From the NCBI GenBank assembly GCA_016719755.1, contig JADJYM010000001.1, positions 91,001 through 155,000 on the forward strand: a stretch of DNA of 64,000 nt. The letters are read 5' to 3'. Below are positions 8,788 through 42,572 of this stretch, in pieces; positions within the stretch are counted from its first letter, which is position 1; each line of letters opens with the position of its first letter. The notes under the pieces are model-generated. The model saw only the letters and a list, made by a program, of their open reading frames with translations, was not told where the DNA came from and made no database searches. The DNA comes from Novosphingobium sp. Lineage in GTDB: Bacteria > Pseudomonadota > Alphaproteobacteria > Sphingomonadales > Sphingomonadaceae. A program made the position numbers and the translations under genes.

Positions 8788-8791
8788 CGGT

Positions 8792-10147: not shown

Positions 10148-10165
10148 GATGCGGAAAGGACTGGC

Positions 10166-13347: not shown

Positions 13348-13355
13348 GTGCCACT

Positions 13356-13381
13356 CCTGTCGGCATTGTTCATACGACAGG
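13356..13381. promoter_or_regulatory. Inverted repeat in a divergent promoter region
   Basis: CCTGTCG and CGACAGG form a perfect 7-bp inverted repeat around a 12-base spacer. It lies 9 bases upstream of the start of the minus-strand gene at 13,347 and 66 bases upstream of the start at 13,447. Its position fits an operator for both genes; no regulator gene is adjacent. Confidence 0.4.
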
Positions 13382-13446
13382 GCCCTGACTTGCCAAGCCG
13401 CTGGGGCGGCAAGCGTCTACTGTGCGGATAAGCGGGGAGACCACCG

Positions 13447-15775: not shown

Positions 15776-15859
15776 GTCAGTCTTTCCTCTGCTGTGCGGC
15801 CGGACCTTGCGGGACCGGTCGCGCGGGCTTCTCCCCACAGCGGGTTCTTGCTTGTTGTA

Positions 15860-17372
15860 TCACAGTCCCAGCGCGCCGGGATTCATCCGGCCCTGCGGAT
15901 CGAGCCGGGCCTTCAGCGCCTGCAGGGCGCCCCAGGCGGCGGGATCGCTGCGCTGGCGCAGCGGATAGGTCCGGCCGATCTGGAAATGGATGCCCTCGTT
16001 CTCGCCGATCACCGCGATCACTCCGGCACGCAGCTTTTCCACCACGGCGCGCGCCTCGGGATTGGCGGGATAGTCGTTCAGCTTGGCCAGGTGTGCCGGT
16101 TCGATCGATGCGCGGTGCAGGGTGTGCAACTTGTCCGGCCAGTAGAAGCACGGCTCGATCAGGAAGCCGCTGGTCCCCACGGTCAGGAACAGATAGCCCG
16201 CCCCGATCGAGAAGCGCTCCATTTCCTCGGCATGGTCCTCGAACAGCCGGGTGAAACCGGCGATGGTCGATACCGCGCGGGAATGGCGCACGATCCCGTG
16301 GACCGGCAGCCAGCGTTCGCCGTTCGGCCCGGCCATCGAATTGGTCGGCGGGAAGGGGTTGGCGCGCAGGATCTTGGGCACGGTGTTTTCCACCTGGCGG
16401 CCGCGGTTCGCTTTCGACGATGGCCACGATCCGGCGCATATCCTCGTCCGCGGCGGCCTGGATCCGTCCCTCGCTGGTGCAGTGGATCGAGAACTTGGCC
16501 TCGTCGAGGAACGAGCGTCCGGCGGCAACAACCTTGGCCCCTTCCTTCACCGCGCGCCAGAACCCGCCCTGCGACTTCATCATGTTGACCAGCGATTTGG
16601 CATCGGCGGCCAGGCTGTCGCGCCGCATCCGCTGGGCGGTCAGGAACGGGTCGAAGCCGAAGGCCTCGCTGGCCAGGCCCTGGCGCGAGATTTCGCTCAT
16701 CGCCGCGCAGTAATCCTCGGGCGTGTCGAACGCGAAGGAACCATAGGCAAAGGCTTCCGCCTCGCGCATCAGCGGCAGAGTGATGTGCGCCTTGACGCCC
16801 AGCGCCCCGGCATCGGCGCAGAACAGGCCGGTGATATCCGGGCCGAAGCCGCGCAGGAAATGGTTGCCGGTATCGATCACCGATCCATCGGCCAGCACCA
16901 CCTTCATCGCCACCACGCCCTGCATGAAGGTGCCGTGCTGCCCGGCGCCCCAGAAGGTGCCGTTCTGGCTCATACCCCCGCCGACGCTGGCCTTGATGCC
17001 CGAAAGCGTGCCCCACAGCGGGGTGCGCAGGCCCAGCGGCTGAAGCGCCTCGTACAGCTGCTTCCAGCTGCACCCGGCCTCTACCGTCACGGTCATGTCG
17101 GCCTGATTGATGTCCAGCACGCGGTCCATCGCGCTCAGGTCCACCAGAATCGCCTGCGGATCGTCCTGGACATAGCCGCCGGTATAGCTCAGCCCCGCGC
17201 CGCGCGGGACGATGGCCAGGCCATCGCGCGCGGCGGCGGCGATCCCGGCGCTCAGTTCCTCGATCGAAGACGGGCGCAGCACCGCCTGGGGCAGGGCGCC
17301 GCGATTGTGGACGTCGTGGCTCATCGCCTCGCGCAGGGCTTCGTCGCGCAGCAGGGTAACGGGTTGGGTCAT
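15860..17372 (-). pseudogene. FAD-linked oxidase of the vanillyl-alcohol oxidase family, frameshifted
   Basis: The first frame (17,372 to about 16,400) gives an FAD-binding domain with PRGAGLSYTGG, TVEAGCSWKQL and SVGGGMSQNG, as in 4-cresol dehydrogenase and vanillyl-alcohol oxidase. After VESEPR it runs into sequence without any domain. The next frame from about 16,405 to 15,860 continues with VENTVPKILRANPFPPTNSM, WLPVHG and an ordinary C-terminal domain ending DPQGRMNPGALGL. The total span is 1,513 bases, one more than 504 codons, so a single inserted base near the GCGGCCGC at about 16,397-16,404 explains it. It is either a recent inactivating mutation or a read error. The start overlaps the MFS stop by 4 bases. 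Confidence 0.85.
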
Positions 17373-18601
17373 GCCTGGCCTTCCAGCTTGTCGGGATAGC
17401 GGCCCATCAGCAGCAGCAGCGCGCCGCCCGCCACGAAAGCGATGGCGGCGGCGGTCAGGGCCGGGTCGTAGGACCCCGTGCGGTCACGGATCATGCCGTA
17501 GGCAACGGGGGAAATCGCGCTCATCAGCGCGAAGGGCATATAAAGGCTGCCATAGATGCGCCCGAACTGGGCCATGCCGAAATAGCGCGCGGCCATGAAG
17601 GCAATGAGGTCGGCCTCCGCGCCCGCCGCAAAGCCCAGCAGGAACGCCGCGAGCGAGATCTGCATGGCCGCGCTCGACGTGCCGAGCAGAAGTATGCAGG
17701 CAATCGCGGGCAGGCACAGCACCGGAAAGGCCACCGCCGGCCCCCAGAAACGGTCAAGCAGCAGGCCCACCGTTATCCGGCCGACCAGCAGGCCGGTGCC
17801 GACGATCCCCATGATCCCGGCCGCCGCACCAAGGCTGATGCCGTGGTCCTTGACGATCGCGGGCATATGGCTGTGCGCCCCGCCATAAGCCAGCGCGATC
17901 AGCAGGATCGAGCACCACAGCAGCCAGAACTGGCGGGTCTTCAGGGCCTCGCCAAACGCCATGCCGGTGGTGGTGCCGTCGCTTGCCTTCAGCTCGCCGG
18001 GCAGTTCATCGGCGCGCGGTTCGCGGAACAGGGCGATCACGGCGGGCAGGGCGATCAGCAGCGGCAGCAGGGCCACGGCGGGGAACACCGCGCGCCAGCC
18101 GCCGTTGGCCAGCGCCCAGACCGCGATGCGCGGGACGATGAACGCCGCCGCGCTGGTGCCCAGCAGCATGATCGCCAGCGCCAGGCCCCGGTTCTTCACG
18201 AACCACAGCGCGATGGCGCGGCTCCACACCACCGGGGTCGATCCGATCCCGACCAGCCCGACCACGAACCACAGCAGGTAGAACGCCGCGAGCGAGGGCG
18301 GGATCACGGCAAAGGCGGCGAAGCTGACGATAAACCCGATCAGCGAAAGGATGCCGACCTTGCGCACCCCGTGGCGATCGGCCAGCCCGCCATAGACCGG
18401 CGAAAGCAGCGCGGCGGTGACGCCGAAGATAGTGATGCCCAGGCTCACCTGGGTGCGGCTCCAGCCAAGCTCCGCCTCAAGCGGGGCGAGCAGGAAGCCC
18501 AGCACGTTGAACGGCAGCGGCGAGGCACCGCACATCGTGCCCAGGAAGCCCGCCAGCAGCGTCTTCCATCCGCCTGCAAATTCCGACCGGCCTTGCGCCA
18601 T
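17369..18601 (-). CDS. MFS transporter
   Basis: The 410-residue protein has about twelve hydrophobic segments and the MFS motif A-like loop YGGLADRHGVRKVG after the second segment, with a weaker repeat (VGRITVGLLLDRFWG) in the second half. It belongs with oxalate/formate-type or monocarboxylate-type MFS carriers by general look. The ATG at 18,601 follows GGGAG; an upstream open extension has no site. It is the first gene of a four-gene minus-strand operon with a FAD-linked oxidase and a methyltransferase, so it probably imports or exports their substrate or product. Confidence 0.9.
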   Translation of the reverse strand: MAQGRSEFAGGWKTLLAGFLGTMCGASPLPFNVLGFLLAPLEAELGWSRTQVSLGITIFGVTAALLSPVYGGLADRHGVRKVGILSLIGFIVSFAAFAVIPPSLAAFYLLWFVVGLVGIGSTPVVWSRAIALWFVKNRGLALAIMLLGTSAAAFIVPRIAVWALANGGWRAVFPAVALLPLLIALPAVIALFREPRADELPGELKASDGTTTGMAFGEALKTRQFWLLWCSILLIALAYGGAHSHMPAIVKDHGISLGAAAGIMGIVGTGLLVGRITVGLLLDRFWGPAVAFPVLCLPAIACILLLGTSSAAMQISLAAFLLGFAAGAEADLIAFMAARYFGMAQFGRIYGSLYMPFALMSAISPVAYGMIRDRTGSYDPALTAAAIAFVAGGALLLLMGRYPDKLEGQA

Positions 18602-18747
18602 GGCGCTCCCTTTTCGTGCCCCTGATAAGCCGCAGCTAGGCCTTATCCGGGCGGCGCGCTCCATCGGGGCGGGGCATTTGGTCGCCTAGCGGATACAACC
18701 CGGCTGACAGGGTGGAAGGCGCGCGCGCTCCAACCAAAGGGGAGGAC

Positions 18748-19569
18748 ATGAGCCCAGTTCTGCAATCGCTGCTGTTCGTCCCCGGATCGCGTCCCGAACG
18801 CTTCGCCAAGGCGCTGGCGAGCGGCGCGGACTGCGTGTGCATCGATCTGGAAGACGCCGTCCCGCCCGAAGGCAAGGATGCGGCCCGCGCCGCCGCGCTG
18901 GAGGCCGTTGCCGCCGATCCGCGCCATGCCATCCGGATCAACGGCCTGCGCACCCGCGCCGGGCTGGCCGACCTGCTGGCGATTGCCGCCGCACCGCTGC
19001 GCCCGCGCGTGGTGCTGGTGCCGATGGTGGAGGACGCCGCCGAAATGGCGATTGCCCGGCAGGTGCTGGCCGATCCGGCGATCATGCTGGTGCCGCTGGT
19101 CGAAACCGTGCGTGGCCTGGCCAATGCCGCCGCCATCGCCGCCGATCCGGCGGTAGGGCTGGTGATGTTCGGCGGCGGAGATTTTTCGGCGGAGCTGGGC
19201 GTCGCCCTGGCGTGGGAGCCCTTGCTGGTCGCCCGCGCGCAGCTGGTGATGGCCTGCGCCTCGGCTGGCAAGGGGGTGCTCGACGTGCCGTTCATCGCGC
19301 TCGACGACGAGGCGGGGCTGGCGGAGGACTGCGCCCGGGCAAAGGCGCTGGGCATGGTCGCCAAAGCGGCAATCCATCCCGCCCAGATCGCGGCGATCCA
19401 TACCGCTTTCCGCCCCTCCGCCACCGAGCTGGAAGAGGCCGAGGCCGCTGCCGCAGCCTGGGCCGAAGCCGGCGGCGGGGCGGTCCGCTTCCGGGGCAAG
19501 ATGTTAGAGGCGCCGGTCATGGCGCGATACAACAAGATACTGGCGTTGAAGGAAAAGATCGATGCGTGA
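18748..19569 (+). CDS. CitE-type (HpcH/HpaI family) acyl-CoA lyase, citramalyl/malyl-CoA lyase-like
   Basis: The 273-residue protein has the CitE-family blocks LLFVPGSRPERFAKA, IDLEDAVPP (metal and substrate acids), RINGLRT, PLVETVRGL and FGGGDFSAELG. Family members cleave or form malyl-, citramalyl- or citryl-type thioesters, giving acetyl-CoA plus a keto acid. The ATG at 18,748 follows a strong GGGGAGG site. It is the first of thirteen plus-strand genes and overlaps the MaoC gene. With CoA-transferase, MaoC hydratase and acyl-CoA dehydrogenase next to it, it fits the last step of a methylsuccinate or itaconate-like route; the exact substrate is inferred. Confidence 0.88.
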   Translation: MSPVLQSLLFVPGSRPERFAKALASGADCVCIDLEDAVPPEGKDAARAAALEAVAADPRHAIRINGLRTRAGLADLLAIAAAPLRPRVVLVPMVEDAAEMAIARQVLADPAIMLVPLVETVRGLANAAAIAADPAVGLVMFGGGDFSAELGVALAWEPLLVARAQLVMACASAGKGVLDVPFIALDDEAGLAEDCARAKALGMVAKAAIHPAQIAAIHTAFRPSATELEEAEAAAAAWAEAGGGAVRFRGKMLEAPVMARYNKILALKEKIDA

Positions 19570-20071
19570 TGGTGTTATCCAGGTTGGCCCGCAGCGTTAC
19601 CGCGAAACCTATGGCCGCTATTTCGAAGAGTTCCACGTCGGCGATATCTATGAACATCGCCCCGGCCGGACGATCACCGAGAACGACAATATCTGGTTCT
19701 CGCTGCTGACCATGAACCAGCATCCGTCGCACTGTGATGCCCATTTCGCCAGCCAGACCGAATTCGGCAAGCCGCTGGTCGCATCGCCGCTGACCGTGGC
19801 GATCATGACCGGGCAGAGCGTTTCCGACGTCAGCCAGAAGGCCGTGGCCAATCTTGGCTGGAAGGAAATCCGCCTGCTCAAGCCGGTGTTCGCGGGCGAT
19901 ACGCTCTATTCGGAATCCGAAGTGCTGGAAAAGCGCGAGAGCGAAAAGCGGCCGACGCAGGGGATCGTGACGATCAAGACCGTGGGCAAGAACCAGCGCG
20001 GCGAAGTGGTGTGCGATTTCACCCGCGTCATGCTGATCTGGAAGAAGGGCTTCGGCCCGATGGACGAATAA
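19562..20071 (+). CDS. MaoC-family enoyl-CoA hydratase
   Basis: The 169-residue hot-dog-fold protein starts with a typical RYFEEFHVGDIYEHRPGRTITE segment and has a catalytic-type region with FSLLTMNQHPSHCDAHFA, where hydratases carry the Asp/His pair. Mesaconyl-CoA and itaconyl-CoA hydratases belong to this family. It overlaps the lyase gene by 8 bases and precedes the acyl-CoA dehydrogenase gene by 15. It would add water to the product of the dehydrogenase and pass the hydroxyacyl-CoA to the CitE-type lyase. Confidence 0.88.
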   Translation: MRDGVIQVGPQRYRETYGRYFEEFHVGDIYEHRPGRTITENDNIWFSLLTMNQHPSHCDAHFASQTEFGKPLVASPLTVAIMTGQSVSDVSQKAVANLGWKEIRLLKPVFAGDTLYSESEVLEKRESEKRPTQGIVTIKTVGKNQRGEVVCDFTRVMLIWKKGFGPMDE

Positions 20072-20086
20072 GGAAGGCCCCGGACC

Positions 20087-21262
20087 ATGAGCGGCAGTTC
20101 CACCATCCGCCCCGCGATGCATCCCGACGACGAAGCGGCCCTGCTCGATTCGATCCAGAAGTGGATCGACAAGGACGTCCGACCGGTGGTGATGCACCAC
20201 GATCACGGCGACATCTGGCCCGAGGCGATCGTCGCCCAGATGACCGAAATGGGCCTGTTCGGCGCGACCATCGGCGAGGAATACGGCGGGCTGGGCCTGC
20301 CGGCCCAGACCTATGCCAAGATCGTGATGATGATCAGTTCCTACTGGATGGCGCTGACCGGCATTTTCAATTCGCACCTGATCATGTCCTGCGCGGTGGA
20401 ACGCTTTGGCACCGAGGCGCAGAAGCAGGCCTGGCTGCCCCGCTTTGCCAGCGGCGCAGTGCGCGGCGGGCTGGCCCTGACCGAACCCAACGCCGGAACC
20501 GACCTGCAATCGATCCGCACCACCGCGCGGCGCGATGGCGATCATTACGTGCTGAACGGGACCAAGACCTGGATCTCCAATTCGATCAACGGCAGCTGCT
20601 TTGCCCTGATCGCCAAGACCGATCCCAAGGCCGAGCCGCGCTACAAGGGGATGAGCTTTTTCATCGCCCCCAAGGGCGAAGGGCTGAGCGTCGGCAAGAA
20701 GTTCGACAAGCTGGGCTACAAGGCGATCGACAGCGCCGAACTGATCCTTGAAGACTATCGCATCCCGGCGGAAAACCTGATTGGCGGGGTTGAAGGGCAG
20801 GGCTTTTTCCAGGCCACCGGCGGGCTGGAGCTGGGCCGCATCAACGTGGCCGCGCGCGGGGTCGGGATTGCCGAGGGCGCGCTGCGGCTGGCGACCGAAT
20901 ATGCCCAGGTCCGCGAATCGATGGGCAAGCCGATTGCCGAGCATCAGGCGATCCAGCTCAAGCTGGGCGAAATGGTCACCCGCGCCCGCGCCGCCCGGCT
21001 GCTGACGCTGGATGCGGCCGCCGCCTATGACCGGGGCGAACGCTGCGACATGGAAGCGGGCATGGCCAAGTACTTCGCCTCCGAAGCCGGCGTGGCCAAC
21101 GCGCAGGATGCGATGCGGATCTTCGGCGGCTATTCCTATTCCAAGGAATACGAGATCGAACGCTATTACCGCGATGCCATGCTGATGTGCATCGGCGAAG
21201 GCACCAACGAAATGCAGCGGATCATCATTTCCAAGCAATGGGTCAAGCGGAACCCGGCATGA
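20087..21262 (+). CDS. Acyl-CoA dehydrogenase
   Basis: The 391-residue flavoprotein has the FAD blocks LALTEPNAGTDL and WISNSINGSCF, the FGGYSYSKEYEIERYYRDA block, and the catalytic glutamate in IGEGTNEMQ. A short AAGGAAG site precedes the ATG. It overlaps the next CoA-transferase gene by 4 bases. General sequence features resemble the glutaryl/isobutyryl group, in keeping with a short branched or dicarboxylic CoA thioester, but the substrate cannot be settled by eye. Electrons would go to ETF; no etf genes lie in the window. Confidence 0.92.
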   Translation: MSGSSTIRPAMHPDDEAALLDSIQKWIDKDVRPVVMHHDHGDIWPEAIVAQMTEMGLFGATIGEEYGGLGLPAQTYAKIVMMISSYWMALTGIFNSHLIMSCAVERFGTEAQKQAWLPRFASGAVRGGLALTEPNAGTDLQSIRTTARRDGDHYVLNGTKTWISNSINGSCFALIAKTDPKAEPRYKGMSFFIAPKGEGLSVGKKFDKLGYKAIDSAELILEDYRIPAENLIGGVEGQGFFQATGGLELGRINVAARGVGIAEGALRLATEYAQVRESMGKPIAEHQAIQLKLGEMVTRARAARLLTLDAAAAYDRGERCDMEAGMAKYFASEAGVANAQDAMRIFGGYSYSKEYEIERYYRDAMLMCIGEGTNEMQRIIISKQWVKRNPA

Positions 21263-22458
21263 GCGAGAGCCGCGCCCTTCCGCTTGCGGGCTTCCGCGTG
21301 CTCAGCGCCGAACAGTACGGCGCCGGGCCTTATGGCACGCTGTTCCTGGCCCAGCTGGGGGCAGAGGTCATCAAGATCGAACCGCCCAGGGGCGGCGATA
21401 CCGCGCGCGGGGTGGGGCCGCATTTCCTGCGTGACGGGGAAAGCCTTTATTTCCAGACCTTCAACCTCAACAAGCGTTCGATCACGCTCGATCTGGCGAG
21501 CGAGCGCGGGCAGGCGGTGCTGCACCGGCTGGTGGCGCGCAGCCACGCGGTGGCCAACAACCTGCGCGGCGACGTGCCGGGGCGGGTGGGCCTGACTTAC
21601 GAAGCGCTGAAACACGTCAATCCGGCGATCGTCTGCGCCCATGCATCGGCCTATGGCCGCGACAATCCGCGCGCCAGGTGGCCGGGCTATGACTATCTCG
21701 CCCAGGCCGAAGCGGGGTTCTGCGCCCTGACCGGAGAGCCGGACGGACCGCCCGCGCGCTTTGGCCTGTCGATGGTCGATTTCATGACCGGCACCCAGAT
21801 GGCGGTCGGCCTGCTGGCCGCGCTGCTCGATGCCCAGCGCAGCGGGGTGGGGCGCGATGTCGATGTCGATCTCTATTCGGCGGCGCTGCACCAGCTGACC
21901 TATCCGGCGGTATGGTACATGAACAAGGGCGACGTCACGCAGCGGGTGCCGCGGTCGGCCCATCCTTCGGCCACCCCCAGCCAGATGTTCCGCGCGGCGG
22001 ACGGCTGGATGTTCGTGATGGCCCAGATTCCCAAGTTCTGGCCGATCCTGTGCGAACGCATCGGCCACGCCGAACTGATCGCCGACCCGCGCTTTGCCGG
22101 GCCTGCGGACCGGCTGGCCAACCGCGCCGTGCTGACCGAGATCCTGGACGGGATATTCTCAGCCGCGCCGGTTGCGCACTGGCAGGGCCTGCTGGAAGGA
22201 CACGTTCCGGTCGCGCCGGTTTATGAACTGGACCAGGCGCTGGACAACCCGTGGGTCGATGCCGTGGGGATGCGCCAGCACGTGCCCCATCCCGACCTGC
22301 CCGATATGCAGGTGCTGGCCAGCCCGATCCGGCTGGACGGGCAGCGGCTCCCGGCGCGCGCCGCGCCGTTTCTGGGCGAGGATACGGACGAGGTGCTGGG
22401 CGAAAGCGGCTTCACACCGGATGAGATCGCCCAGCTGCGCGATGCCGGAGCGATCTGA
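21259..22458 (+). CDS. Family III CoA-transferase, tandem copy 1
   Basis: The 399-residue enzyme has the LGAEVIKIEPP block, the VANNLRGD segment, and an Asp at about 174 (LSMVDFMTGTQ) at the catalytic position. The ATG at 21,259 overlaps the acyl-CoA dehydrogenase stop; an upstream extension was rejected. A second, only distantly similar family III gene follows after 3 bases. Pairs of this kind can form a heteromeric transferase, as in benzylsuccinate CoA-transferase, or act on two substrates. Both copies keep the Asp, which favours two active enzymes. Confidence 0.9.
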   Translation: MSESRALPLAGFRVLSAEQYGAGPYGTLFLAQLGAEVIKIEPPRGGDTARGVGPHFLRDGESLYFQTFNLNKRSITLDLASERGQAVLHRLVARSHAVANNLRGDVPGRVGLTYEALKHVNPAIVCAHASAYGRDNPRARWPGYDYLAQAEAGFCALTGEPDGPPARFGLSMVDFMTGTQMAVGLLAALLDAQRSGVGRDVDVDLYSAALHQLTYPAVWYMNKGDVTQRVPRSAHPSATPSQMFRAADGWMFVMAQIPKFWPILCERIGHAELIADPRFAGPADRLANRAVLTEILDGIFSAAPVAHWQGLLEGHVPVAPVYELDQALDNPWVDAVGMRQHVPHPDLPDMQVLASPIRLDGQRLPARAAPFLGEDTDEVLGESGFTPDEIAQLRDAGAI

Positions 22459-22461
22459 CCC

Positions 22462-23544
22462 ATGGGCAAGCTGAGCGGGATCACGGTGGTCGATCTTTCG
22501 GTGTTCCTGCCGGGGCCGATGATGACCATGATGATGGCCGATCAGGGCGCCGAGGTGTGGAAGGTGGAAAGCCCCAGCGGCGATCCCGCGCGCGAACAGG
22601 CCCCGTTCGAAGGCGGCCAGTCGGTATGGTTCCGCAATCTCAACAGGGCCAAGAAAAGCGTGGCGCTCGACCTCAAGACCGAGGCCGGACAGGCGCGGCT
22701 GTGGGAACTGATCGAACGCGCGGACGTGTTCGTCGAAGGGTTCCGTCCCGGCGTGATGCGGCGGCTGGGGTTCGATTATGCCGCCGTTTCGGCGCGCAAT
22801 CCCCGGATCGTCTATTGCTCGATTTCCGCCTTCGGGCAGGAGGGCGAGCTGGCCCACCATCCCGCTCATGACATGGCGACCCAGGCGCTGGCCGGGTTCC
22901 TTTCGGTCAACGACGGGCCGGACGGCACTCCGGTGGTGCCGGGGGTTCCCGCCGCCGACATGGGCGCCGGGCTGACCGCGCTGTCGGCCACGCTGATGGC
23001 GCTGATCGGGCGCGAGCGCACCGGGCGCGGCGATTACATCGACTGCGCGATGTTCGACAGCCTGCTGCCGTGGTGCTCGCACACCGTGGGCATGGCCCTG
23101 GCGGGGGGCGAACCGCCGCGTTCGGCCACGCAGCGTTCGCTGGGCGGGGCGGCGTTCTATCAGGTCTATGCCACCGCCGATGGCCGCCACGTGGTGCTGG
23201 GCGGTCGCGAACCGAAGTTTGCCGCGAACCTGCTGGGCGCGCTGGAGCGGATCGACCTGCTGCCCATCACCGAACGCCCGGCGGGCGAGCAGGGTGAACT
23301 GATCGCCTTTCTGCGGGATACCTTCGCCAGCCGCACCCGTGACGAATGGGTTGCCTGGTTCGCCGACAAGGACGTGGCGTTTTCGCCCGTGCTGGATTTC
23401 CGCGAAGCCTTTGCCCAGCCGCACATTGCCGAACGCGGCCTGCTGATCGAGGCGGGGGGCGGGCACATGATCGCCCCGGCGATCCGCTTTGCGGGTGAGG
23501 AATGGCATCCGGCCCCCGCGCCCGAACTTGGCGCGGACGGCTAG
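22462..23544 (+). CDS. Family III CoA-transferase, tandem copy 2
   Basis: The 360-residue enzyme is shorter than copy 1 and has the blocks DLSVFLPGPM, WFRNLNRAKKSVALDLK, VEGFRPGVM and an Asp at about 166 (PAADMGAG). The LNRAKKSVALDLK and GFRPG wording is typical of the CaiB group that includes alpha-methylacyl-CoA racemase and carnitine or itaconate transferases. The ATG lies 3 bases after the stop of copy 1. Within the operon it could activate the entry acid (as Ict does in Pseudomonas itaconate breakdown), while copy 1 recycles CoA; which does what is open. Confidence 0.9.
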   Translation: MGKLSGITVVDLSVFLPGPMMTMMMADQGAEVWKVESPSGDPAREQAPFEGGQSVWFRNLNRAKKSVALDLKTEAGQARLWELIERADVFVEGFRPGVMRRLGFDYAAVSARNPRIVYCSISAFGQEGELAHHPAHDMATQALAGFLSVNDGPDGTPVVPGVPAADMGAGLTALSATLMALIGRERTGRGDYIDCAMFDSLLPWCSHTVGMALAGGEPPRSATQRSLGGAAFYQVYATADGRHVVLGGREPKFAANLLGALERIDLLPITERPAGEQGELIAFLRDTFASRTRDEWVAWFADKDVAFSPVLDFREAFAQPHIAERGLLIEAGGGHMIAPAIRFAGEEWHPAPAPELGADG

Positions 23545-23555
23545 GGCCGCGCGGC

Positions 23556-24848
23556 ATGACCCCGACTGCCCGCCTGCTTGCCTTCGCCGCCGCTCCGCAC
23601 GTTCTGCCCGGTTCCGTCCGCGCCGATTGCGAGCGGCTGGTGGCCGATACGCTGGCGGTAGGCGCGGCGGGCTGGACCGCGCCGGGCATGGCGGGCGTGC
23701 TCGCCGTGGCGCGCGGCTGGGGCGAAGGGGCCGAAGCGCGGCTGCTGGGCGAGGCGGATGCGCGCCTGCCCGCCGGGGCCGCCGCCTATGCCAACTGCTT
23801 TGCTATCCATTGCCTGGAATGGGACGCGGTCCACGAAGGGGCGGTGTGCCATGCGCTGACTGCGGTGGTCCCCGCCGTGCTGGCCGTGGCCGACCGCCGG
23901 GGCGGGGCCGCGCTGGATGATATGCTCACCGCGATCGCGGTGGGGGTCGATGTCGCTAGCGGGCTGGGGATCGCGGCGGACAGCGCGCTCAGCTTTTTCC
24001 GTCCGGCAACCGCAGGGATTTACGGCGCGGCGCTGGCGGCGGCGCGGATCGCGGGCCTGCCCGCCGCCGCCTTTGCCGATGTGCTGGGACTTGCCCATGC
24101 CCATGCCGCCGGGACCATGCAGGCCCACAGCGAAGGCTCCATCGCCCTGCCGCTGCAACTGGCCAATGCCGCGCGCGGCGCGGTCCACGCGGTCGATCTC
24201 GTCCGCCATGGTCTGACCGGCCCGCACGACGTGCTGCAAGGTCCGTTCGGCCACTTCAGCCTGTTCGAGCGGGGCGATCTGGCGCGGTATACCGGCGGGC
24301 TGGGGCAGGTCTGGCGGATATCGGAGATCAGCACCAAGCCGTTCCCCTCGGGCCGGGCCAGCCACGCCGCGCTGGGCGCGCTGGCGGAATTTGCCGGACG
24401 CGAGGTGGCGGGGGTGCAGCTCCACGTGCCGCCGCTGATCCGGCACCTTGTCGGTCGGCCCGCCTTGCCGGACATGACGGCGGCCTATGCCCGGCTGTGC
24501 CTGCCGTTCCTCGCCGCGCTGATGCTGACCGACGGGCAGATCGATCCGCGCCGGTTCACGGCTCCGGTCTTTGCCGATGCGGCGCTTCAGGCCCTCGCCG
24601 CGCGGGTGGAGCTGGTGGACGATGGCAATGCGGATCCCAACGCGCTCTCGCCGCAGCGCCTGATCGTGACGCTGGCTGACGGGACGCGGATCGAGCGCTC
24701 CGTGCCGGCCACGCTGGGCTCGCCCTTGATGCCGCTTGGTGCCGTTGAGGCGCGGGTCAAAGCCGCTCTGTGCCGCTCACTCGCCCCTCCCGGCCACGAT
24801 CCGCGCCTTTTCGCAGCCCCGATGGCCTATCTGACGGACCCGACATGA
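23556..24848 (+). CDS. MmgE/PrpD family protein
   Basis: The 430-residue protein matches the MmgE/PrpD fold: an all-helical start (LVADTLAVGAAGW), the EWDAVHEGAVCHA segment (family motif with the His), the HAHAAGTMQAH core and the KPFPSGRASHAA block that contributes substrate-binding residues. The family includes 2-methylcitrate dehydratase and cis-aconitate decarboxylase, which makes itaconate. The ATG at 23,556 was chosen because the frame upstream lies in the CoA-transferase gene. It overlaps the next gene by 4 bases. Beside CitE, MaoC and CoA-transferase genes, a dehydratase or decarboxylase of a tricarboxylic or branched dicarboxylic acid is plausible. Confidence 0.87.
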   Translation: MTPTARLLAFAAAPHVLPGSVRADCERLVADTLAVGAAGWTAPGMAGVLAVARGWGEGAEARLLGEADARLPAGAAAYANCFAIHCLEWDAVHEGAVCHALTAVVPAVLAVADRRGGAALDDMLTAIAVGVDVASGLGIAADSALSFFRPATAGIYGAALAAARIAGLPAAAFADVLGLAHAHAAGTMQAHSEGSIALPLQLANAARGAVHAVDLVRHGLTGPHDVLQGPFGHFSLFERGDLARYTGGLGQVWRISEISTKPFPSGRASHAALGALAEFAGREVAGVQLHVPPLIRHLVGRPALPDMTAAYARLCLPFLAALMLTDGQIDPRRFTAPVFADAALQALAARVELVDDGNADPNALSPQRLIVTLADGTRIERSVPATLGSPLMPLGAVEARVKAALCRSLAPPGHDPRLFAAPMAYLTDPT

Positions 24849-26215
24849 GCTATCCTACCTACTTCGAAGCCTTCGATATCAAGCAGTTGCTGGCCGATTA
24901 TCCGGTCGGCGACGCGTTCGTGGCACGCTATGCCAAAATCAGCCGCGACGAACTTTTCGCGCTGCAGGACGCCCGCTTTCGTCAGCTGATGCGGCGCGGC
25001 TGGGAGATTCCCTTCTACCAGCGGTTGTGGGGCGCCATGGGCATAGAGGCAGGCGATATCAATGGCTTGGCTGATATTGCCAAGCTGCCGACCTATGACA
25101 AGTCGGACCTCATGGCCTCGATCGCGGCGCACCCGCCCTACGGTGATTTCGCGGGCCTTGGCGGCGCCAACCGCCCCCCGGCGATTCTCCACACCACCTC
25201 CGGCACCACCGGCCGCCCCCAGACCCTGCTGTTCGGCCCCAAGGGCCGCGAAGTGGGCAATTTGCTGGTCGGGCGGCTCTATCGCTGGCTTGGCCTGCAG
25301 CCTTCGGACGTGGTCCATTCGGTCTACGGCCACGGCATGATCAACGGCGGCCACTATATCCGCGAGGCCGTAACCCATTATACCAACTCGCTATTCCTGT
25401 CCGCAGGGACAGGGATAGAAACCCGTTCGGCCCAGCAGGTGCAACTGATGGCTGACTTTGGCGTCACGGTCGCGGTGGGCTTTGTCGACTATCTGCGCAA
25501 GCTGGCCGATACGGCCCGCGCCGAAGGGCTGATGGACCGGATCAATCTGCGCATGATCATCGGCCACCTCGGCACCGAAGACCGCGCCGCCACCGAGGCC
25601 GCCTGGGGCGGGGCCAAGGCCTATGACTGGTACGGGGTTGGCGATACCGGCTCGATCGCTGGCGAAGGGCCGGACCGTGACGGGCTCTATGTCTGGGAAG
25701 ACGCGCACTATCTTGAGCTTCTGGATGTCGACAGCGGCGCCCCGGTTGCCCCGGGCGGCACGGGGGACATGGTGGTGACCTGCCTCTACAAGGATGACAT
25801 CGCCCCCTGCATCCGCTTCAACACCCACGACATTACCCATGTCCTGGACGGGCAGGGCGAGATCGCGTTCCAGCGCATTGCCGGGTTCAAGGGGCGCAGC
25901 GACAACATGGTCAAGCTGCGCGGGATTAACCTGTTTCCCCACGCGGTCGGCGCACTGATCGAGAACCGCGCCGATCTGACTGGCGAGTATGTCTGCAAGG
26001 TCGTTCGCGATCCGGCGAGCCAGCGCGACGACATGACGGTGCTGATCGAAAGCCGCGGCGGGACCGATGCGGCGGAACTGGGCGAAGTGCTGCGGCGCGG
26101 ACTGGGCGTGGAAGTGCGGGTGGAGCTTTGCGCGCCCGGCAGCACCGCGCCGCTGACCCAGTTGGAAGTGCGCCAGAAGCCGCTGCGGCTGATCGACGAG
26201 CGCGGACTCAAATGA
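24845..26215 (+). CDS. PaaK-like AMP-forming acyl-CoA ligase (ANL superfamily)
   Basis: The 456-residue protein has the ATP-binding HTTSGTTGRPQ loop near residue 120, the YGVGDTGS motif where PaaK has YG-type adenine contacts, and the hinge GRSDNMVKLRGINLFP, which is characteristic of phenylacetate-CoA ligases. It should activate an aromatic or other carboxylic acid to its CoA thioester. The ATG at 24,845 overlaps the preceding stop (ATGA); the frame is open further up but inside the PrpD gene. It overlaps the amidase gene downstream by 4 bases. In combination, amide hydrolysis followed by CoA ligation is an attractive order. Confidence 0.9.
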   Translation: MSYPTYFEAFDIKQLLADYPVGDAFVARYAKISRDELFALQDARFRQLMRRGWEIPFYQRLWGAMGIEAGDINGLADIAKLPTYDKSDLMASIAAHPPYGDFAGLGGANRPPAILHTTSGTTGRPQTLLFGPKGREVGNLLVGRLYRWLGLQPSDVVHSVYGHGMINGGHYIREAVTHYTNSLFLSAGTGIETRSAQQVQLMADFGVTVAVGFVDYLRKLADTARAEGLMDRINLRMIIGHLGTEDRAATEAAWGGAKAYDWYGVGDTGSIAGEGPDRDGLYVWEDAHYLELLDVDSGAPVAPGGTGDMVVTCLYKDDIAPCIRFNTHDITHVLDGQGEIAFQRIAGFKGRSDNMVKLRGINLFPHAVGALIENRADLTGEYVCKVVRDPASQRDDMTVLIESRGGTDAAELGEVLRRGLGVEVRVELCAPGSTAPLTQLEVRQKPLRLIDERGLK

Positions 26216-27372
26216 CCGATTTTCAGGCCCTTGCCAGCGCCAACGCACCCTACGGAGCCTTCGTCGAGTTCGATTCCGGGGCGAACGGCGGAGCCGGTCC
26301 GCTGGGCGGGGTGACACTGGGCGTTAAGGCCAACATCATGGTCAAGGGACTGGCCTGGACCGCCGGCATGGAGCTTTACCGCACCCGCCGCGCGCACCGC
26401 GACGCGGCGGCAGTGGCGCTGCTGCGTGCGGCAGGGGCCGAAGTGCTGGGCACGCTTAACATGCACGAAGCCGCGCTGGGGGCGCATGGCGACAACCCGT
26501 TCTATGGAACCTGCCACAATCCCCGCCGCGCGGGCTTTTCGCCGGGCGGCTCGTCAAGCGGGAGCGCGGCAGCGGTGGCGGCAGGGCTGTGCGACCTGGC
26601 GCTGGGCACCGACACGCTGGGATCGATCCGCATCCCCGCCGCCTATTGCGGCGTCTATGGCCTTAAACCCACACACGGCGCGGTGAGCCAGGACGGGCTT
26701 GCCTGCCTTGAGCCCGAATTCGACTGCATCGGCCCGCTGGCCCGGTCGCTCGATCTGATAGAGCGGTGCTGGGCCGTGCTCTCGCCCGCCAGCCCGCCCC
26801 CGCCCCCGGTGCCGCTGCGGCGGATGCTGGTGCTGGACGGGCTGGGCGCAGTTACATGCGAACCGGCGGTCTTGTCAGCCTACGAAGCGGCACTCGCCCA
26901 GGCCAGACTGCCGCGAGAAACCCTGGCCCTGGCCGATGATGCGGCCGCGATCCGCCGCGCCGGGCTGGCCCGCGCCGGACAATGGCTGCTGCGCGATATG
27001 GGGCCGCTCTATCGTTCGGACAGTCCGCACTTTTCCGAAGAACTGCATTTCATCCTGGGGGCCTGTGCCCGGATGGCGCCGCAGGGTGAAGTGCTGGAAC
27101 GCACGCGGACCGCGCTGCACACCGCACTGGGCGATGATGGCGTGCTGATCCTGCCCACCGCGCCGCAGCCAGCCTTTGCCCACGGCACCCGTCCTCCGGC
27201 CAACCAGGCTGATTTTACCGCGCTGGCCTCTGTCGCAGGCCTGCCCGCACTGTCGATTCCGGCGGGCTGCGAGGCAGGCGGATTGCCTGTTGGCGTCCAG
27301 CTGGTCGGGCCGATGGGTTCGGAAAATGCGCTGATTGCACTGGCGCGACAGATCGAAGCGAAGGGAGATTGA
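26212..27372 (+). CDS. Amidase-signature family hydrolase
   Basis: The 386-residue protein has the Ser-cisSer-Lys triad: Lys39 in GVKANI, the Gly/Ser loop GGSSSGS (Ser115 as cis-Ser), and Ser138 in TLGSIRIPA as nucleophile. The C-terminal substrate domain is shorter than in many amidases. The ATG at 26,212 overlaps the ligase stop. It should release ammonia or an amine from an amide, for example a ring-fission amide or a carbamoyl compound. Together with the hydrolases at 10.2-12.6 kb it points to a nitrogen-containing substrate for the region. Confidence 0.9.
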   Translation: MTDFQALASANAPYGAFVEFDSGANGGAGPLGGVTLGVKANIMVKGLAWTAGMELYRTRRAHRDAAAVALLRAAGAEVLGTLNMHEAALGAHGDNPFYGTCHNPRRAGFSPGGSSSGSAAAVAAGLCDLALGTDTLGSIRIPAAYCGVYGLKPTHGAVSQDGLACLEPEFDCIGPLARSLDLIERCWAVLSPASPPPPPVPLRRMLVLDGLGAVTCEPAVLSAYEAALAQARLPRETLALADDAAAIRRAGLARAGQWLLRDMGPLYRSDSPHFSEELHFILGACARMAPQGEVLERTRTALHTALGDDGVLILPTAPQPAFAHGTRPPANQADFTALASVAGLPALSIPAGCEAGGLPVGVQLVGPMGSENALIALARQIEAKGD

Positions 27373-27375
27373 CCT

Positions 27376-27681
27376 ATGCGTATCGTGGTACTCTTCAACC
27401 TCAAGCCGGGCGTCGATCCGGCCGCCTATGAAGCCTGGGCGCGCGGCACCGACATTCCGGGGGTCAATGCGCTGTCTTCGGTTGATCGGTTTTCAGTGCA
27501 CCGGGCGACCGGCCTGTTCGGCAGCGATGCGCCTTCACCCTACCAGTATGTCGAGGTGATCGACATCGCCGCGCTCGATCCCTTCGTCGCCGAGATTTCG
27601 ACCGAGGCCTTTCAAAAGGTCGCCGCGGCCTTTGGTGACTTTGCGGAGAATCCCCAGTTCATCATGACGGAAGACCTGTGA
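27376..27681 (+). CDS. HapK/REDY-like small dimeric alpha+beta barrel protein
   Basis: The 101-residue protein starts MRIVVLFNLKPGVDPAAYEAWARGTDIP and ends with an AAFGDFAENPQFIMTEDL segment, which fits the ferredoxin-like fold of HapK-type REDY proteins and EthD relatives. HapK itself comes from a prodigiosin cluster, and related proteins appear in sphingomonad degradation operons, where the role is unknown. It sits between amidase and SDR genes with 3-base and 1-base junctions, so it is clearly part of the operon. It may be a small isomerase or a chaperone for a reactive intermediate; that is speculation. Confidence 0.7.
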   Translation: MRIVVLFNLKPGVDPAAYEAWARGTDIPGVNALSSVDRFSVHRATGLFGSDAPSPYQYVEVIDIAALDPFVAEISTEAFQKVAAAFGDFAENPQFIMTEDL

Positions 27682-28478
27682 TGGGCCGCTTTGCGGGCAA
27701 GACCGTGGTGGTGACCGGTTCGGGCCGACAGAAGGGACTGGGGCAGGCGATCCTCCAGCGCTTTGCCGACGAGGGCGCCAACTGCGTGGTGTCCGACCGT
27801 CATTTGGGCGAAGAGGCCGAGGCCGTTGCCGAAGACCTGCGCGCGCGCGGCGCGAGGGTTGCGGCCATCGCCTGCGACGTGGCGGACCCGGACCAGTGCG
27901 AGGCGCTGGTGCAGGGTGCGGTGGAAGCGTTTGGCGGGATCGACGTGTTCGTCAACAACGCCGGGATCGGCTTCATGATGACCCCGCTGCTGGAGGTGAA
28001 GGCGGCGGATTGGCAAACCGTGATCGGCGTGAACCTGTCCGGCGCGTTCCATTGCACCCAGGCAGCGGCGCGGGCGATGATCGCGCGCGGATCGGGAGGG
28101 CGGATCATCAACATCGCCAGCCAGGCCGCCAAGACCGGCTTTCCGCACCTGGCCGCCTATGTGAGTTCGAAGCACGGGATGATCGGCCTGACCCGCGCCT
28201 CGGCAATCGAGCTGGGCGGGCACGGTATCACGGTCAACGCGGTCTGCCCCAATCACGTCACGACTGCGCTGGGGGCGGAGCAGAACGCCTATTTCTCGAA
28301 GCTGCTCGGCTTTGATACGGTAGAGGCTTACCTTGCCAACATGAGCGCCAAGAACCCGATGGGGCGCCCCGGGCTGCCCGGCGACACTGCGGCGACCTGC
28401 GCCTGGCTGGCGAGCGCGGACGCGGGCTACATCACGGGCGAGGCGATCAACGTTTCGGGCGGCGAGGAGATGCACTGA
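27681..28478 (+). CDS. Short-chain dehydrogenase/reductase
   Basis: The 265-residue protein has a glycine-rich TGSGRQKGLGQ cofactor motif, an NNAGIG strand and a YVSSK catalytic block with a Ser upstream (NIASQ). It reduces or oxidises an alcohol/keto group with NAD(P). The ATG at 27,681 overlaps the HapK stop as TGATG, while a GTG three bases earlier is also possible. The next gene overlaps by one base. In the operon it may oxidise a hydroxyacyl or a ring diol; the substrate is unknown. Confidence 0.92.
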   Translation: MGRFAGKTVVVTGSGRQKGLGQAILQRFADEGANCVVSDRHLGEEAEAVAEDLRARGARVAAIACDVADPDQCEALVQGAVEAFGGIDVFVNNAGIGFMMTPLLEVKAADWQTVIGVNLSGAFHCTQAAARAMIARGSGGRIINIASQAAKTGFPHLAAYVSSKHGMIGLTRASAIELGGHGITVNAVCPNHVTTALGAEQNAYFSKLLGFDTVEAYLANMSAKNPMGRPGLPGDTAATCAWLASADAGYITGEAINVSGGEEMH

Positions 28479-29344
28479 TGCGCGAAGAGCGGATGGACTG
28501 GCCGAACGGTGCCCGGATCGCGCTGTCGGTCGTGGTCAATGTCGAGGAGGGCTCCGAACAGTCGGTCCTGCGCGGTGATCGCGGGATGGAACCGGTCGAC
28601 GAACTGGGCATTTTCATCAAGGGCCCGATCCGCAATTATTCAAACGAATCCAATTACCTTTACGGGATCAAGGCCGGGGCGCCACGGATCGTCAAGCTGC
28701 TGCGTCGCTATGACATCATGGCCAGCTGGACCGTTGCCGCGCAGAGCCTGGAAAACCATCCCGAAATCGCCGCTGCGATCGTCGAGCTGGGACACGAGCC
28801 GGTCAGCCATGGCTGGCGCTGGCTGCACCAGTTCCGCATGGACGAGGCGCAGGAGCGCGAGTTCATCCGGAAAGCCGTCGCCTCGATCGAGCGGACCTGC
28901 GGGCGCCGCCCCTCCGGCTGGCTGTCGCGCTATATGCTGACCGACAACACCCGCCGGCTGCTGGTGGAAGAGGGTTTTGCCTATCACATGGACGATTACT
29001 CGGGCGACGTTCCCTTCTGGGACCGGGACACCGTGCCGGGCAGGCCCATCGCCATCGTTCCCTACCAGGTCGACAACAACGACATGAAGATGTGGACCGA
29101 TCCGGCCGTCTCGCCCCATGCCTGGCTCGACTATGCGAAGGCGAATTTCGACCAGCTGTACCGCGAGGGCGAAGAGGGCAATCCCAAGATGATGTCGCTG
29201 GGGCTGCATCTGCGGATCATCGGGCGTCCCGGGCGGGTCTGGGCGCTCGAGGAGTTCTTCCGCCACGTCCGCTCGCACGGCGATGTCTGGATTGCCAGCC
29301 GCGAGGAAATCGCCGCCCATCTCGCCAAGGTTGAACCGGCGTGA
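28478..29344 (+). CDS. PuuE-like polysaccharide-deacetylase-family hydrolase (allantoinase type)
   Basis: The 288-residue protein has the PuuE hallmarks: DWPNGARIALSVVVNVEEGSE at the start, ASWTVAAQSLENHPE, and SHGWRW near residue 108, which in PuuE allantoinase forms part of the active site. A RYMLTDNTRRLLVEEGF block and a HLRIIGRPGR loop complete the fold. It has no signal peptide. It is the third NodB-type gene in the window and differs from the tandem pair at 10.8-12.6 kb by its canonical SHGWRW. A cyclic amide or ureide ring opening is the best guess from the family. Confidence 0.88.
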   Translation: MREERMDWPNGARIALSVVVNVEEGSEQSVLRGDRGMEPVDELGIFIKGPIRNYSNESNYLYGIKAGAPRIVKLLRRYDIMASWTVAAQSLENHPEIAAAIVELGHEPVSHGWRWLHQFRMDEAQEREFIRKAVASIERTCGRRPSGWLSRYMLTDNTRRLLVEEGFAYHMDDYSGDVPFWDRDTVPGRPIAIVPYQVDNNDMKMWTDPAVSPHAWLDYAKANFDQLYREGEEGNPKMMSLGLHLRIIGRPGRVWALEEFFRHVRSHGDVWIASREEIAAHLAKVEPA

Positions 29345-30093
29345 GCCTGCGGCTTGAAACCGAAGGCGCCGTCGCCCGGCTGCTGATCGACCGGCCGGAA
29401 AAGCGCAACGCCTTTAACCAGGCCATGTGGCTTGAACTGCCGGGCCTGCTCACCCGGGCCGATGCCGATCCTGCCGTGCGAGTGATCGTGGTTGAGGCTG
29501 CGGGTGGCGGGGTATTCTGTGCCGGGGCGGACATCGGCGAACTGATGGCCAACCGCGAGAACGAGGCATGGCTCGCCGCCAATCAGGCTGCGATCAACAC
29601 CGCGCAATGGGAACTGGCGCGCAGCCCCAAGCCGACCATCGCGATGATCGACGGGGATTGCGTGGGAGGAGGCTGCGGCCTGGCGCTGGCGTGCGATATC
29701 CGCCTGGCAACGCCCCGGGCGCGGCTGGGGATTACGCCCGCCAAGCTGGGGCTCGTCTATCCCTTGCACGATACCAAGCTGCTGATCGACGCGGTCGGCG
29801 CGTCCCAGGCCAGGCGGATCATGTTCACCGGGGCGCTGCTGGGCGCCGATGAAGCGCTGCGGATCGGACTGATCGACGATCTGGCCGAGAGCGCCGAGGC
29901 GCTGGCCGGAACGATTGCCGCCAACTCGCTGGACAGCACTCGCGCGATCAAGCGCTTCGTGCGCCGCATACTCGACGGCCAGACCGAGGACGACGCCGAT
30001 ACGCTGCGGATCTTTGCCGATGCCTTTGCCGGGGCGGATTTCCGGGAAGGCGCGGATGCCTTCCTCGCCAAGCGCAAGCCGGCCTTCCGATGA
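29341..30093 (+). CDS. Crotonase-superfamily protein lacking hydratase glutamates
   Basis: The 250-residue protein, started by GTG within the previous stop, has the crotonase oxyanion segments FCAGADIGE and DGDCVGGGCGLALACDI. In enoyl-CoA hydratase the two catalytic glutamates are the residue after GGGC and the one after the P of the PE motif; here these are Gly113 and Ala134 (GGGCGLA and TPAKLG). It is therefore unlikely to be an ordinary hydratase and may be an isomerase, decarboxylase, hydrolase or C-C lyase of a CoA thioester. It overlaps the VOC gene by 4 bases. Confidence 0.88.
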   Translation: MSLRLETEGAVARLLIDRPEKRNAFNQAMWLELPGLLTRADADPAVRVIVVEAAGGGVFCAGADIGELMANRENEAWLAANQAAINTAQWELARSPKPTIAMIDGDCVGGGCGLALACDIRLATPRARLGITPAKLGLVYPLHDTKLLIDAVGASQARRIMFTGALLGADEALRIGLIDDLAESAEALAGTIAANSLDSTRAIKRFVRRILDGQTEDDADTLRIFADAFAGADFREGADAFLAKRKPAFR

Positions 30094-30992
30094 GCGCGAA
30101 GGTATCCCACGGCGCGATCCTTGGCGCGCTGTCCTGCGTGCCCGATCTGGACGCAGCGCTTGCTGACTATTGCGGAGTTCTGGGGCTTGAATGCGTGCAC
30201 AGGGGCGTGCTGGACCCGGAGCTTGCGGCAAGCTGGGGCTACGCTGCAAGCGCGGGACGGCGCATGGCGCTGCTGCGTCCCGCCAGCGGCTTTCCGTGCT
30301 GGTACCGGCTGGTCGAACAGCCTGTCCCGCCAGACTATCGCCCGACCCGCAGTTATGGCTGGGCCAGCTTCGAACTGACCGTGAAGGACGTGTTCGAACT
30401 GCGTGAGCAGGTCCGGGATAGCACCTTCACCGTGCTGGGCGAACCCAAGGAGATCGCGGCAATTCCCTTCTTCGTCGCCATGCAGGCGCTGGGGAGCGGC
30501 GGCGAGATGCTGTACTTCAACGAGACGCGGGCGATGATGCCGGGCACCGATCTGCCTTTCGCGGTTTCGCGCGCGGATCAGGTGTTCATCGTGATTCTGG
30601 CCGCGCCCGACCGCCAGGCGGCGACCGACTGGTACCGCGACCGGCTGAAGCTGGACGAGGCCGATACCTTCCGCATTCCCTATTCGATGATCAACAAGGC
30701 CTTCGCGCAGCCGGACGATACGCTGACCGCGCTGACCATGATCCAGCAGGGCCGGATGCCGATTGTCGAGATCGACGAGTACCCGGCAGCGGCAAGGCTT
30801 CGGCCGTGTCTCGACGGTTCGCTGCCGCCCGGCAACGCTCTGGTGACGCTGGCGGTGCGCAGCCTTGACGAGCTTGGGCTGGACTGGATCGTGGCTCCCC
30901 GGCCACGCGCCGAAGCCCCGTATCTCGGCGCCCGCGCGGCAACGGTGCGGGGGCCTGCGGGCGAACTGCTGGAACTGGTCGAGCTGGCCTAG
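30090..30992 (+). CDS. Two-domain VOC-fold protein (glyoxalase/extradiol dioxygenase superfamily)
   Basis: The 300-residue protein contains two vicinal-oxygen-chelate modules. The first begins HGAILGALSCVPDLDAALADYCGVLGLE and ends with GEMLYFNET; the second begins VFIVILAAPDRQAATDWYRDRLKL and ends ELLELVEL. A type I extradiol dioxygenase would need His, His and Glu ligands in the C-terminal module, but its first strand has Val in the His position, so ring-cleaving activity is not supported. It could be an isomerase, epimerase or lyase. It is the last gene of the long operon and shares a CTAG with the stop of the facing gene. Confidence 0.8.
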   Translation: MSAKVSHGAILGALSCVPDLDAALADYCGVLGLECVHRGVLDPELAASWGYAASAGRRMALLRPASGFPCWYRLVEQPVPPDYRPTRSYGWASFELTVKDVFELREQVRDSTFTVLGEPKEIAAIPFFVAMQALGSGGEMLYFNETRAMMPGTDLPFAVSRADQVFIVILAAPDRQAATDWYRDRLKLDEADTFRIPYSMINKAFAQPDDTLTALTMIQQGRMPIVEIDEYPAAARLRPCLDGSLPPGNALVTLAVRSLDELGLDWIVAPRPRAEAPYLGARAATVRGPAGELLELVELA

Positions 30993-31963: not shown

Positions 31964-32107
31964 GCTCCCCGGCTAAATGCGCAAGGGCGGATGCAGTCGC
32001 TTCTGCACATCACTCGCCGCAAGGCGGATAGTTTGGTTCATTTCCCCTCCGGCCATTCTGCAATCGTCCCATAGCTTTCCACCGAACAAGATGTGGAGCA
32101 GGGCGGT

Positions 32108-33313: not shown

Positions 33314-33348
33314 TCCGGTCGCATGCCGGAAAGACAGGAGTTCAGCTC

Positions 33349-34095: not shown

Positions 34096-34162
34096 GGCGT
34101 CCCACCCCGGCGCGCTGGCGTGGTATGCTTTCAGTTCTCGTGACATTGGATCGGCGCAAACT

Positions 34163-42567: not shown

Positions 42568-42572
42568 AAGCC

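Follow-up and report, generated by a model that had tools for sequence, protein, structure and literature searches.

What does a thirteen-gene operon that joins C-N hydrolases to a dicarboxylate route degrade, and does it do so alone? The question is raised by positions 18748-30992 of a 64,000-nucleotide (nt) stretch of Novosphingobium sp. DNA (assembly GCA_016719755.1, contig JADJYM010000001.1, positions 91,001 to 155,000; hereafter the window). The original prediction, made from the letters of this DNA, had treated the operon as a pathway in itself; instead, it proves to be half of a larger supercluster, whose other half lies at 4744-12644. Tentatively, the operon and this second half are read here as partners in the catabolism of an imported nitrogen heterocycle. 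Observed in the sequence are the family membership of the proteins, a conserved gene order and the co-occurrence of both halves. By family, each half also repeats the same kinds of step, namely a ring-amide hydrolase, an amide hydrolase, a CoA-transferase, a hydratase and a C-C lyase.

Order and conservation of the operon

All thirteen open reading frames listed between 18748 and 30992 (g01-g13) lie on the + strand. As predicted, they are joined by overlaps or short gaps, ranging from -8 to +15 nt; the 12 junctions measure, in order, -8, 15, -4, 3, -4, -4, -4, 3, -1, -1, -4 and -4 nt. The same order, which the original prediction had suggested looking for, recurs in other genomes. Loci were obtained by a PaaK-like protein scan of genome contigs, in which 140 relatives were confirmed and the best 80 kept; they do not form a random sample, and orthology was assigned by score and position, not by trees. 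Of the 59 loci that exceed 20 kb, 54 contain the complete set of 13 genes with order and strand unchanged (the remaining 21 of the 80 are shorter and were not counted), and the arrangement is therefore far from chance.

Median identity to the window proteins ranges from 49% (amidase) to 80% (PuuE, acyl-CoA dehydrogenase). A PaaK orthologue (E 1e-100 or better) is present in 36 of a sample of 396 genomes of the order, distributed over 18 of 84 genera, and TonB-receptor matches were found at 21 of the 80 loci. When 61 genomes, the window genome among them, were queried with PuuE, no match outside the window genome exceeded 46% identity. Loci L102, L106, L111 and L112 hold only the PrpD-PaaK-amidase-HapK-SDR part, and L101 is missing the HpcH, crotonase and VOC genes. 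An Asp/Glu-racemase-family gene is located near the VOC gene in six of the 80 loci (L060, L109, L041, L044, L046 and L057); the copies of L060 and L041 match PF01177 and no NCBIfam model, and a maleate isomerase role for this gene is a guess.

The genes of the operon are the following:

18748..19569 (+), g01, HpcH/CitE-type acyl-CoA C-C lyase; PF03328 109 bits (scanned from 18712); NCBIfam RipC 205.1 bits, cut-off 375
19562..20071 (+), g02, MaoC hydratase of the mesaconyl/itaconyl-CoA hydratase type; PF19315 81 bits; NCBIfam RipB 225.3 bits, cut-off 340
20087..21262 (+), g03, acyl-CoA dehydrogenase; PF00441; nearest solved structure 4iv6 (FadE3)
21259..22458 (+), g04, class III CoA-transferase 1; PF02515 (scanned from 21187); best model succinate--glutarate CoA-transferase, 224.5 bits, cut-off 750
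22462..23544 (+), g05, class III CoA-transferase 2; PF02515 356 bits
23541..24848 (+), g06, MmgE/PrpD protein b (PrpD-b), divergent form; PF03972 132.5 bits, PF19305 61.5 bits, vs 32.1 (scanned from 23502)
24845..26215 (+), g07, PaaK-like acid--CoA ligase; AMP-binding ligase C-terminal domain (Pfam); PaaK model TIGR02155 155.7 bits, cut-off 646.3
26212..27372 (+), g08, amidase-signature hydrolase; PF01425 247 bits; GGSSSGS and DTLGS motifs in the sequence
27376..27681 (+), g09, HapK/REDY-like small protein; PF11639 56 bits, cut-off 25; nearest solved structure 2jdj
27681..28478 (+), g10, SDR dehydrogenase; PF13561 and PF00106 (scanned from 27678)
28478..29344 (+), g11, PuuE-type hydrolase, a ring-amide hydrolase by homology; polysaccharide deacetylase family; NCBIfam PuuE 252.5 bits, cut-off 424.6
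29341..30093 (+), g12, crotonase without the hydratase glutamates; PF00378; nearest solved structure 4wcz
30090..30992 (+), g13, double VOC-domain protein; PF00903 29.5 bits

The families named in the original prediction are confirmed by Pfam, and the PaaK and PuuE types by NCBIfam; a catabolic operon using the dicarboxylate route is likewise supported. The adjacent MaoC hydratase and HpcH lyase recall itaconate degradation, whose RipB/Ich and RipC/Ccl enzymes give the best NCBIfam matches. Unlike in that system, the RipB and RipC equivalog cut-offs are not reached, and the operon adds C-N hydrolases, PaaK and PrpD. The g11 protein aligns nearly full-length (residues 7-285 of 288) with the PuuE allantoinase 3cl6 at 228 bits, with the motifs kept, which places it in the wider PuuE-type hydrolase group; it differs from the allantoinase in falling below the TIGR03212 cut-off, and no purine-degradation gene is named among the genes scanned. 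Similarly, g07 is PaaK-type by NCBIfam but stays far below the TIGR02155 cut-off for a PaaK phenylacetate--CoA ligase, and no other paa pathway gene passes its cut-off among the genes scanned. For g03, 22 NCBIfam models were matched, none above its own cut-off.

By passing the cut-offs of PF03972 and PF19305, g06 belongs to the MmgE/PrpD family. Its nearest solved chains by sequence are cis-aconitate decarboxylases; in contrast to methylcitrate systems, no methylcitrate synthase or lyase is named among the genes scanned. Catalytically typical PrpD and cis-aconitate decarboxylase proteins have conserved His and Lys active-site positions. The g06 orthologues read FFRPA where PrpD-a, the other PrpD protein of the relatives, has a conserved H, and they are without the K and other residues conserved in PrpD-a (20 sequences of each plus the window g06; H and K positions read from the alignment).

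Enoyl-CoA hydratases carry a GGGCE motif and two catalytic glutamates. In g12, the Glu of this motif is replaced by Gly (at least 64 of 65 orthologues), and the window protein has GITPAKLG around the place of the second Glu, so the protein lacks the two glutamates of a hydratase-type crotonase. The label of non-hydratase crotonase thus holds on sequence. The structure model of g13, with a predicted local distance difference test score (pLDDT) of 94, has two-domain glyoxalase I proteins as its best fold matches (template-modelling score about 0.6), and would indicate the fold, not the reaction. A REDY-like HapK gene appears in a table of a lignin-model study of a marine Novosphingobium (PMC4609964).

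A linked block and the supercluster

The second block contains its own CoA-transferase, lyase, isomerase and hydrolase genes; u06, an FAD-linked oxidase and an MFS transporter are listed with it. The gene starts given for the linked block are approximate:

4744..5925 (-), class III CoA-transferase; PF02515; in 7 of 7 compared superclusters, truncated in G185 where the fetched stretch ends
5922..6842 (-), start approximate, HMG-CoA-lyase-like; NF004283 266.6 bits, cut-off 246; 78-84% identity in 7 of 7 superclusters
6839..7447 (-), LeuD-like small subunit; PF00694 111.5 bits
7429..8787 (-), LeuC paralogue; NF009116 634 bits, cut-off 531
8792..10147 (-), start approximate, alpha/beta hydrolase; PF00561 43.7 bits; 48-65% in 7 of 7 superclusters
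10166..10846 (+), start approximate, isochorismatase-like amidohydrolase; PF00857 101 bits (scanned from 10169); 82-88% in 7 of 7 superclusters
10846..11724 (+), PuuE-like hydrolase 2 (PuuE2); PF01522; in 36 of 36 operon genomes
11724..12644 (+), PuuE-like hydrolase 3 (PuuE3); PF01522 (scanned from 11580); 62-74% identity in 7 superclusters
12634..13347 (-), u06, conserved unknown protein; no Pfam match; 48-84% identity in 7 of 7 superclusters
15777..17372 (-), FAD-linked oxidase; PF01565; in 7 of 7 superclusters
17369..18664 (-), MFS transporter, divergent from the operon; PF07690 139 bits; in 7 of 7 superclusters

PuuE2 (E 1e-90 or better) was found in 68 of the 396 genomes of the order, that is, in 36 of 36 with the operon versus 32 of 360 without it (Fisher p = 1.5e-32, the related genomes not being independent). 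PuuE2 and PaaK are located on one contig at most 60 kb apart in 28 of these 36 genomes, further apart on the same contig in three and on different contigs in five. Eight superclusters were compared, the window and seven genomes picked for the closeness of PuuE2 and PaaK. They share the CoA-transferase, the HMG-lyase-like protein, LeuD, LeuC, the alpha/beta hydrolase, the isochorismatase-like protein, PuuE2, PuuE3, u06, the FAD oxidase, the MFS transporter and the 13 operon genes.

The LeuC paralogue passes the NF009116 cut-off and has an adjacent small subunit, which assigns the pair to the LeuC/LeuD isomerase family; a second LeuC-like match (48% identity) is present elsewhere in the window genome, so the copy of the linked block is an extra one. 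The isochorismatase-like gene has weak matches to the biuret hydrolase (BiuH), PncA and RutB models. With two PuuE-like hydrolases and this isochorismatase-like one contributed by the linked block, the nitrogen-containing substrate that had been proposed for the operon is supported. It is also supported by a nitrilase-family (CN_hydrolase) gene, absent from the window and detected by tblastn in six of the seven compared superclusters (e.g., G329 and G217); the scanned copy has an N-terminal twin-arginine-like stretch. Families flanking the operon in other loci resemble the surroundings of the linked block (alpha/beta hydrolase 27-34%, DUF1838 24%, membrane protein 23%). The model of the DUF1838 neighbour (pLDDT 82) gave no fold match in the PDB at E 0.001 or better.

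The operon is split in three genomes, G412, G190 and G270 (by contig coordinates the genomes of L112, L111 and L113, respectively). The PrpD-to-SDR genes are found at one place and a PuuE orthologue (72-76%) alone at another, and the MaoC, acyl-CoA dehydrogenase and both CoA-transferase genes are next to a DUF1838 gene at a third. As these modules stay in the genome when they are not neighbours, they likely serve one pathway.

Other genes surround the supercluster. L188, the 20 kb directly upstream of the window, contains resolvase/recombinase and IS240-type transposase genes, at 12328-13506 and 17955-18644, and a partial second copy of the FAD-linked oxidase (49% identity); such genes upstream of the supercluster may point to past movement. 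Downstream of the operon, 32093-35602 encodes an FAD monooxygenase (MhpA-like), an arylmalonate decarboxylase/EutA-like protein and a succinate-semialdehyde dehydrogenase. Further on, at 40923-44551, an IclR regulator is followed by FAA-hydrolase-family, acetaldehyde-dehydrogenase-like and 4-hydroxy-2-oxovalerate-aldolase-like genes, the usual end of a meta-cleavage pathway; the genes at 40923-44551 were not found in the seven compared superclusters.

Regulator and second PrpD gene

The original prediction of a single transcription unit is plausible for the window strain and does not describe the usual state in its relatives, which, in most of those examined, is two units with a regulatory gene between them. 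In 73 of the 80 loci, among them 57 of the 59 above 20 kb, a GntR/UTRA gene occupies the opposite strand in the interval between CoA-transferase 2 and PaaK. Counted by CoA-transferase 2, it is present in 64 of the 67 loci that hold this gene, L060, L090 and L109 being without it, and four short loci without CoA-transferase 2 show no GntR gene. Its identity was established on the L058 copy only, which passes the cut-offs of PF00392 (66.6 bits) and PF07702 (74 bits). The absence of a regulator beside the operon promoter, also predicted, is true of the window, where the divergent MFS gene adjoins; what it missed is the regulator that most relatives keep between g05 and g06. In the window genome no orthologue of this regulator was found, the best match being 42% over 62 residues. 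A promoter and terminator scan gave nothing exceeding shuffled sequence.

A second gene is missing at the same place. Both PrpD-a and PrpD-b are present in 77 of the 80 relative loci. Contig ends truncate two of the remaining three, and L037 has only degraded PrpD-a remains. In this close relative, the remains are found at L037:8697-9450, there is no PrpD-b and the GntR gene is still kept. The window locus has neither the GntR/UTRA regulator nor PrpD-a, and the only other PrpD-family gene of the window genome is on another contig. PrpD-a is also missing in G233 and G185, two of the seven compared superclusters. Since the window lacks the regulator and the PrpD-a gene that relatives keep there, the g05-g06 overlap of 4 nt is best read as the putative trace of a deletion that fused two units. 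With the regulator lost, expression in the window strain may be constitutive or under another regulator.

Proposed pathway and rival readings

Both blocks repeat the same kinds of step, and the predicted substrate is a cyclic imide or lactam, which would be converted to an alkyl-substituted C4 dicarboxylate and then to pyruvate and an acyl-CoA. PuuE-type enzymes would open the imide or lactam ring, and the amidase g08 in the operon and the isochorismatase-like enzyme in the linked block would release ammonia. The class III CoA-transferases could then load CoA onto the alkyl-substituted C4 dicarboxylate, and MaoC (g02) could hydrate its double bond. LeuC/LeuD enzymes can hydrate methylmaleate, and in the linked block the paralogue might alternatively hydrate the dicarboxylate first. 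Cleavage to pyruvate and an acyl-CoA is assigned to the HpcH/CitE-type lyase g01 and, in the linked block, putatively to the HMG-CoA-lyase-like protein. PaaK, the acyl-CoA dehydrogenase, the SDR and the crotonase may deal with the acyl-CoA product or with a side chain that carries a carboxyl group, and a free tri- or dicarboxylate might be the substrate of the PrpD proteins. The two halves would correspond to a pair of related ring types or to two stages in the breakdown of a single compound. The GntR/UTRA regulator presumably controls the cluster in most relatives examined.

Several points weigh against this pathway. The substrates of all the enzymes are predictions. None of g01-g13 reaches an NCBIfam cut-off among the matches listed, so the gene families are right and the exact functions are putative. 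Deacetylases also belong to the PuuE family, and other malate-type acids could be substrates of LeuC/LeuD. PaaK, the SDR, HapK, VOC and the crotonase are without a firm place in the scheme. The PrpD-a step is not essential, being absent in the window genome, G233 and G185. The nine stretches read in the split genomes gave no match to HpcH, crotonase or VOC at E 1e-15, the rest of the three genomes not having been searched, so the HpcH C-C lyase, the crotonase and VOC are not fixed parts of the split modules. Finally, the presence of PuuE2 without the operon in 32 genomes indicates that the linked block can work alone.

That last observation also suits a somewhat unlikely alternative, in which an aromatic or terpenoid acid is unmasked from its amide or ureide linkage by PuuE and the amidase, then activated by PaaK and degraded in beta-oxidation-like steps, with the two halves made neighbours by habitat and not by chemistry. 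PaaK, the acyl-CoA dehydrogenase, the crotonase and the SDR would form the beta-oxidation-like set. The PrpD-PaaK-amidase trio also occurs by itself on a Tistrella mobilis plasmid (46% to PrpD-a, 60% and 44%), beside a GntR gene (31%); over the 31 kb read there, the other operon genes are unmatched except for distant SDR genes (29-33%). Set against this are the crotonase without hydratase glutamates and, favouring a shared chemistry, the 36 of 36 co-occurrence and the physical linkage with a second PuuE/CoA-transferase/hydratase/lyase block. A pyridine-type, nicotinate-like route appears unlikely. In it, oxidation and opening of an N-heteroaromatic ring would yield a maleamate-like amide, from which maleate- or fumarate-type acids would be formed. 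The isochorismatase-like amidohydrolase of the linked block would fit, as it is related to the NicF family; NicF, the maleamate amidohydrolase, is placed in one family with BiuH, RutB and PncA in PMC5806882. The FAD monooxygenase and the arylmalonate decarboxylase/EutA-like gene at 32093-34095 would fit as well, but they were found in none of the seven other superclusters. Neither a dihydroxypyridine dioxygenase nor a molybdenum hydroxylase is named among the window genes scanned, and three PuuE-type hydrolases would be unusual in such a route. Of the nicotinate trio of dihydroxypyridine dioxygenase, deformylase and maleamate amidohydrolase, only the isochorismatase-family gene is named among these genes, the rest of the genome being unsearched. 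The ring hydroxylase and ring-cleavage dioxygenase of the nicotinate pathway are not named among the genes scanned, and the linked block has LeuC/LeuD and an HMG-lyase-like protein instead.

A biosynthetic or detoxifying cluster, not serving as a carbon or nitrogen source pathway, is very improbable. HapK relatives occur in prodigiosin clusters, and the identity of PuuE, PaaK, SDR and acyl-CoA dehydrogenase is high (medians 77-80%), but the CoA-transferases with C-C lyases, the divergent MFS transporter, the TonB-receptor matches and the patchy presence among genomes all suit catabolism better.

Within the preferred reading of an imported nitrogen heterocycle, we also considered the pyrrole-ring fragments of tetrapyrroles (chlorophyll, bilin and haem products, such as methyl-ethyl-maleimide and hematinic acid imide) as the substrates, an improbable proposal. 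One half would serve the methyl-alkyl rings and the other the methyl-propionate ring. By our own reasoning, hematinic acid with CoA on the right carboxyl would give pyruvate and glutaryl-CoA after hydration and retro-Claisen cleavage, and the same chemistry would convert methyl-ethyl-maleate to pyruvate and butyryl-CoA; hematinic acid is also, by this reasoning, the one-carbon homologue of 2-methyl-aconitate, a PrpD-type substrate. PMC7318184 lists maleimides and hematinic acid among pyrrolic chlorophyll breakdown products and mentions reports of them from senescent leaves and lake sediments. In that study, hematinic acid was found, and maleimides could not be detected in the leaves. Among the 396 genomes of the order, the reaction-centre family PF00124 is present in 21 of 36 operon genomes versus 58 of 360 others (p = 9e-8); within one genus (114 genomes), the proportions are 25 of 29 versus 60 of 85 and the link is not significant (p = 0.14). 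The link at order level is treated as mostly shared ancestry, and the tetrapyrrole proposal is kept low because of this result. Against it also stand the 15 of 36 operon genomes that show no photosynthetic reaction-centre gene, and no tetrapyrrole gene was identified in the cluster.

The cluster probably takes up a nitrogen-containing ring compound and degrades it to central metabolites. As had been proposed, it matches no characterised operon within the literature searched; the gene set was not found in the open-licence PubMed Central literature searched on the cluster parts and candidate substrates. A gene set of ~25-30 kb is kept together across many sphingomonad genera. Such a conserved and uncharacterised set suggests that some nitrogen compound common in the environment is degraded by bacteria along a route that may be undescribed, and the paired block design and the lost regulator yield testable predictions. 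If the tetrapyrrole proposal were true, the mineralisation of chlorophyll and bilin ring fragments would become a question for study.

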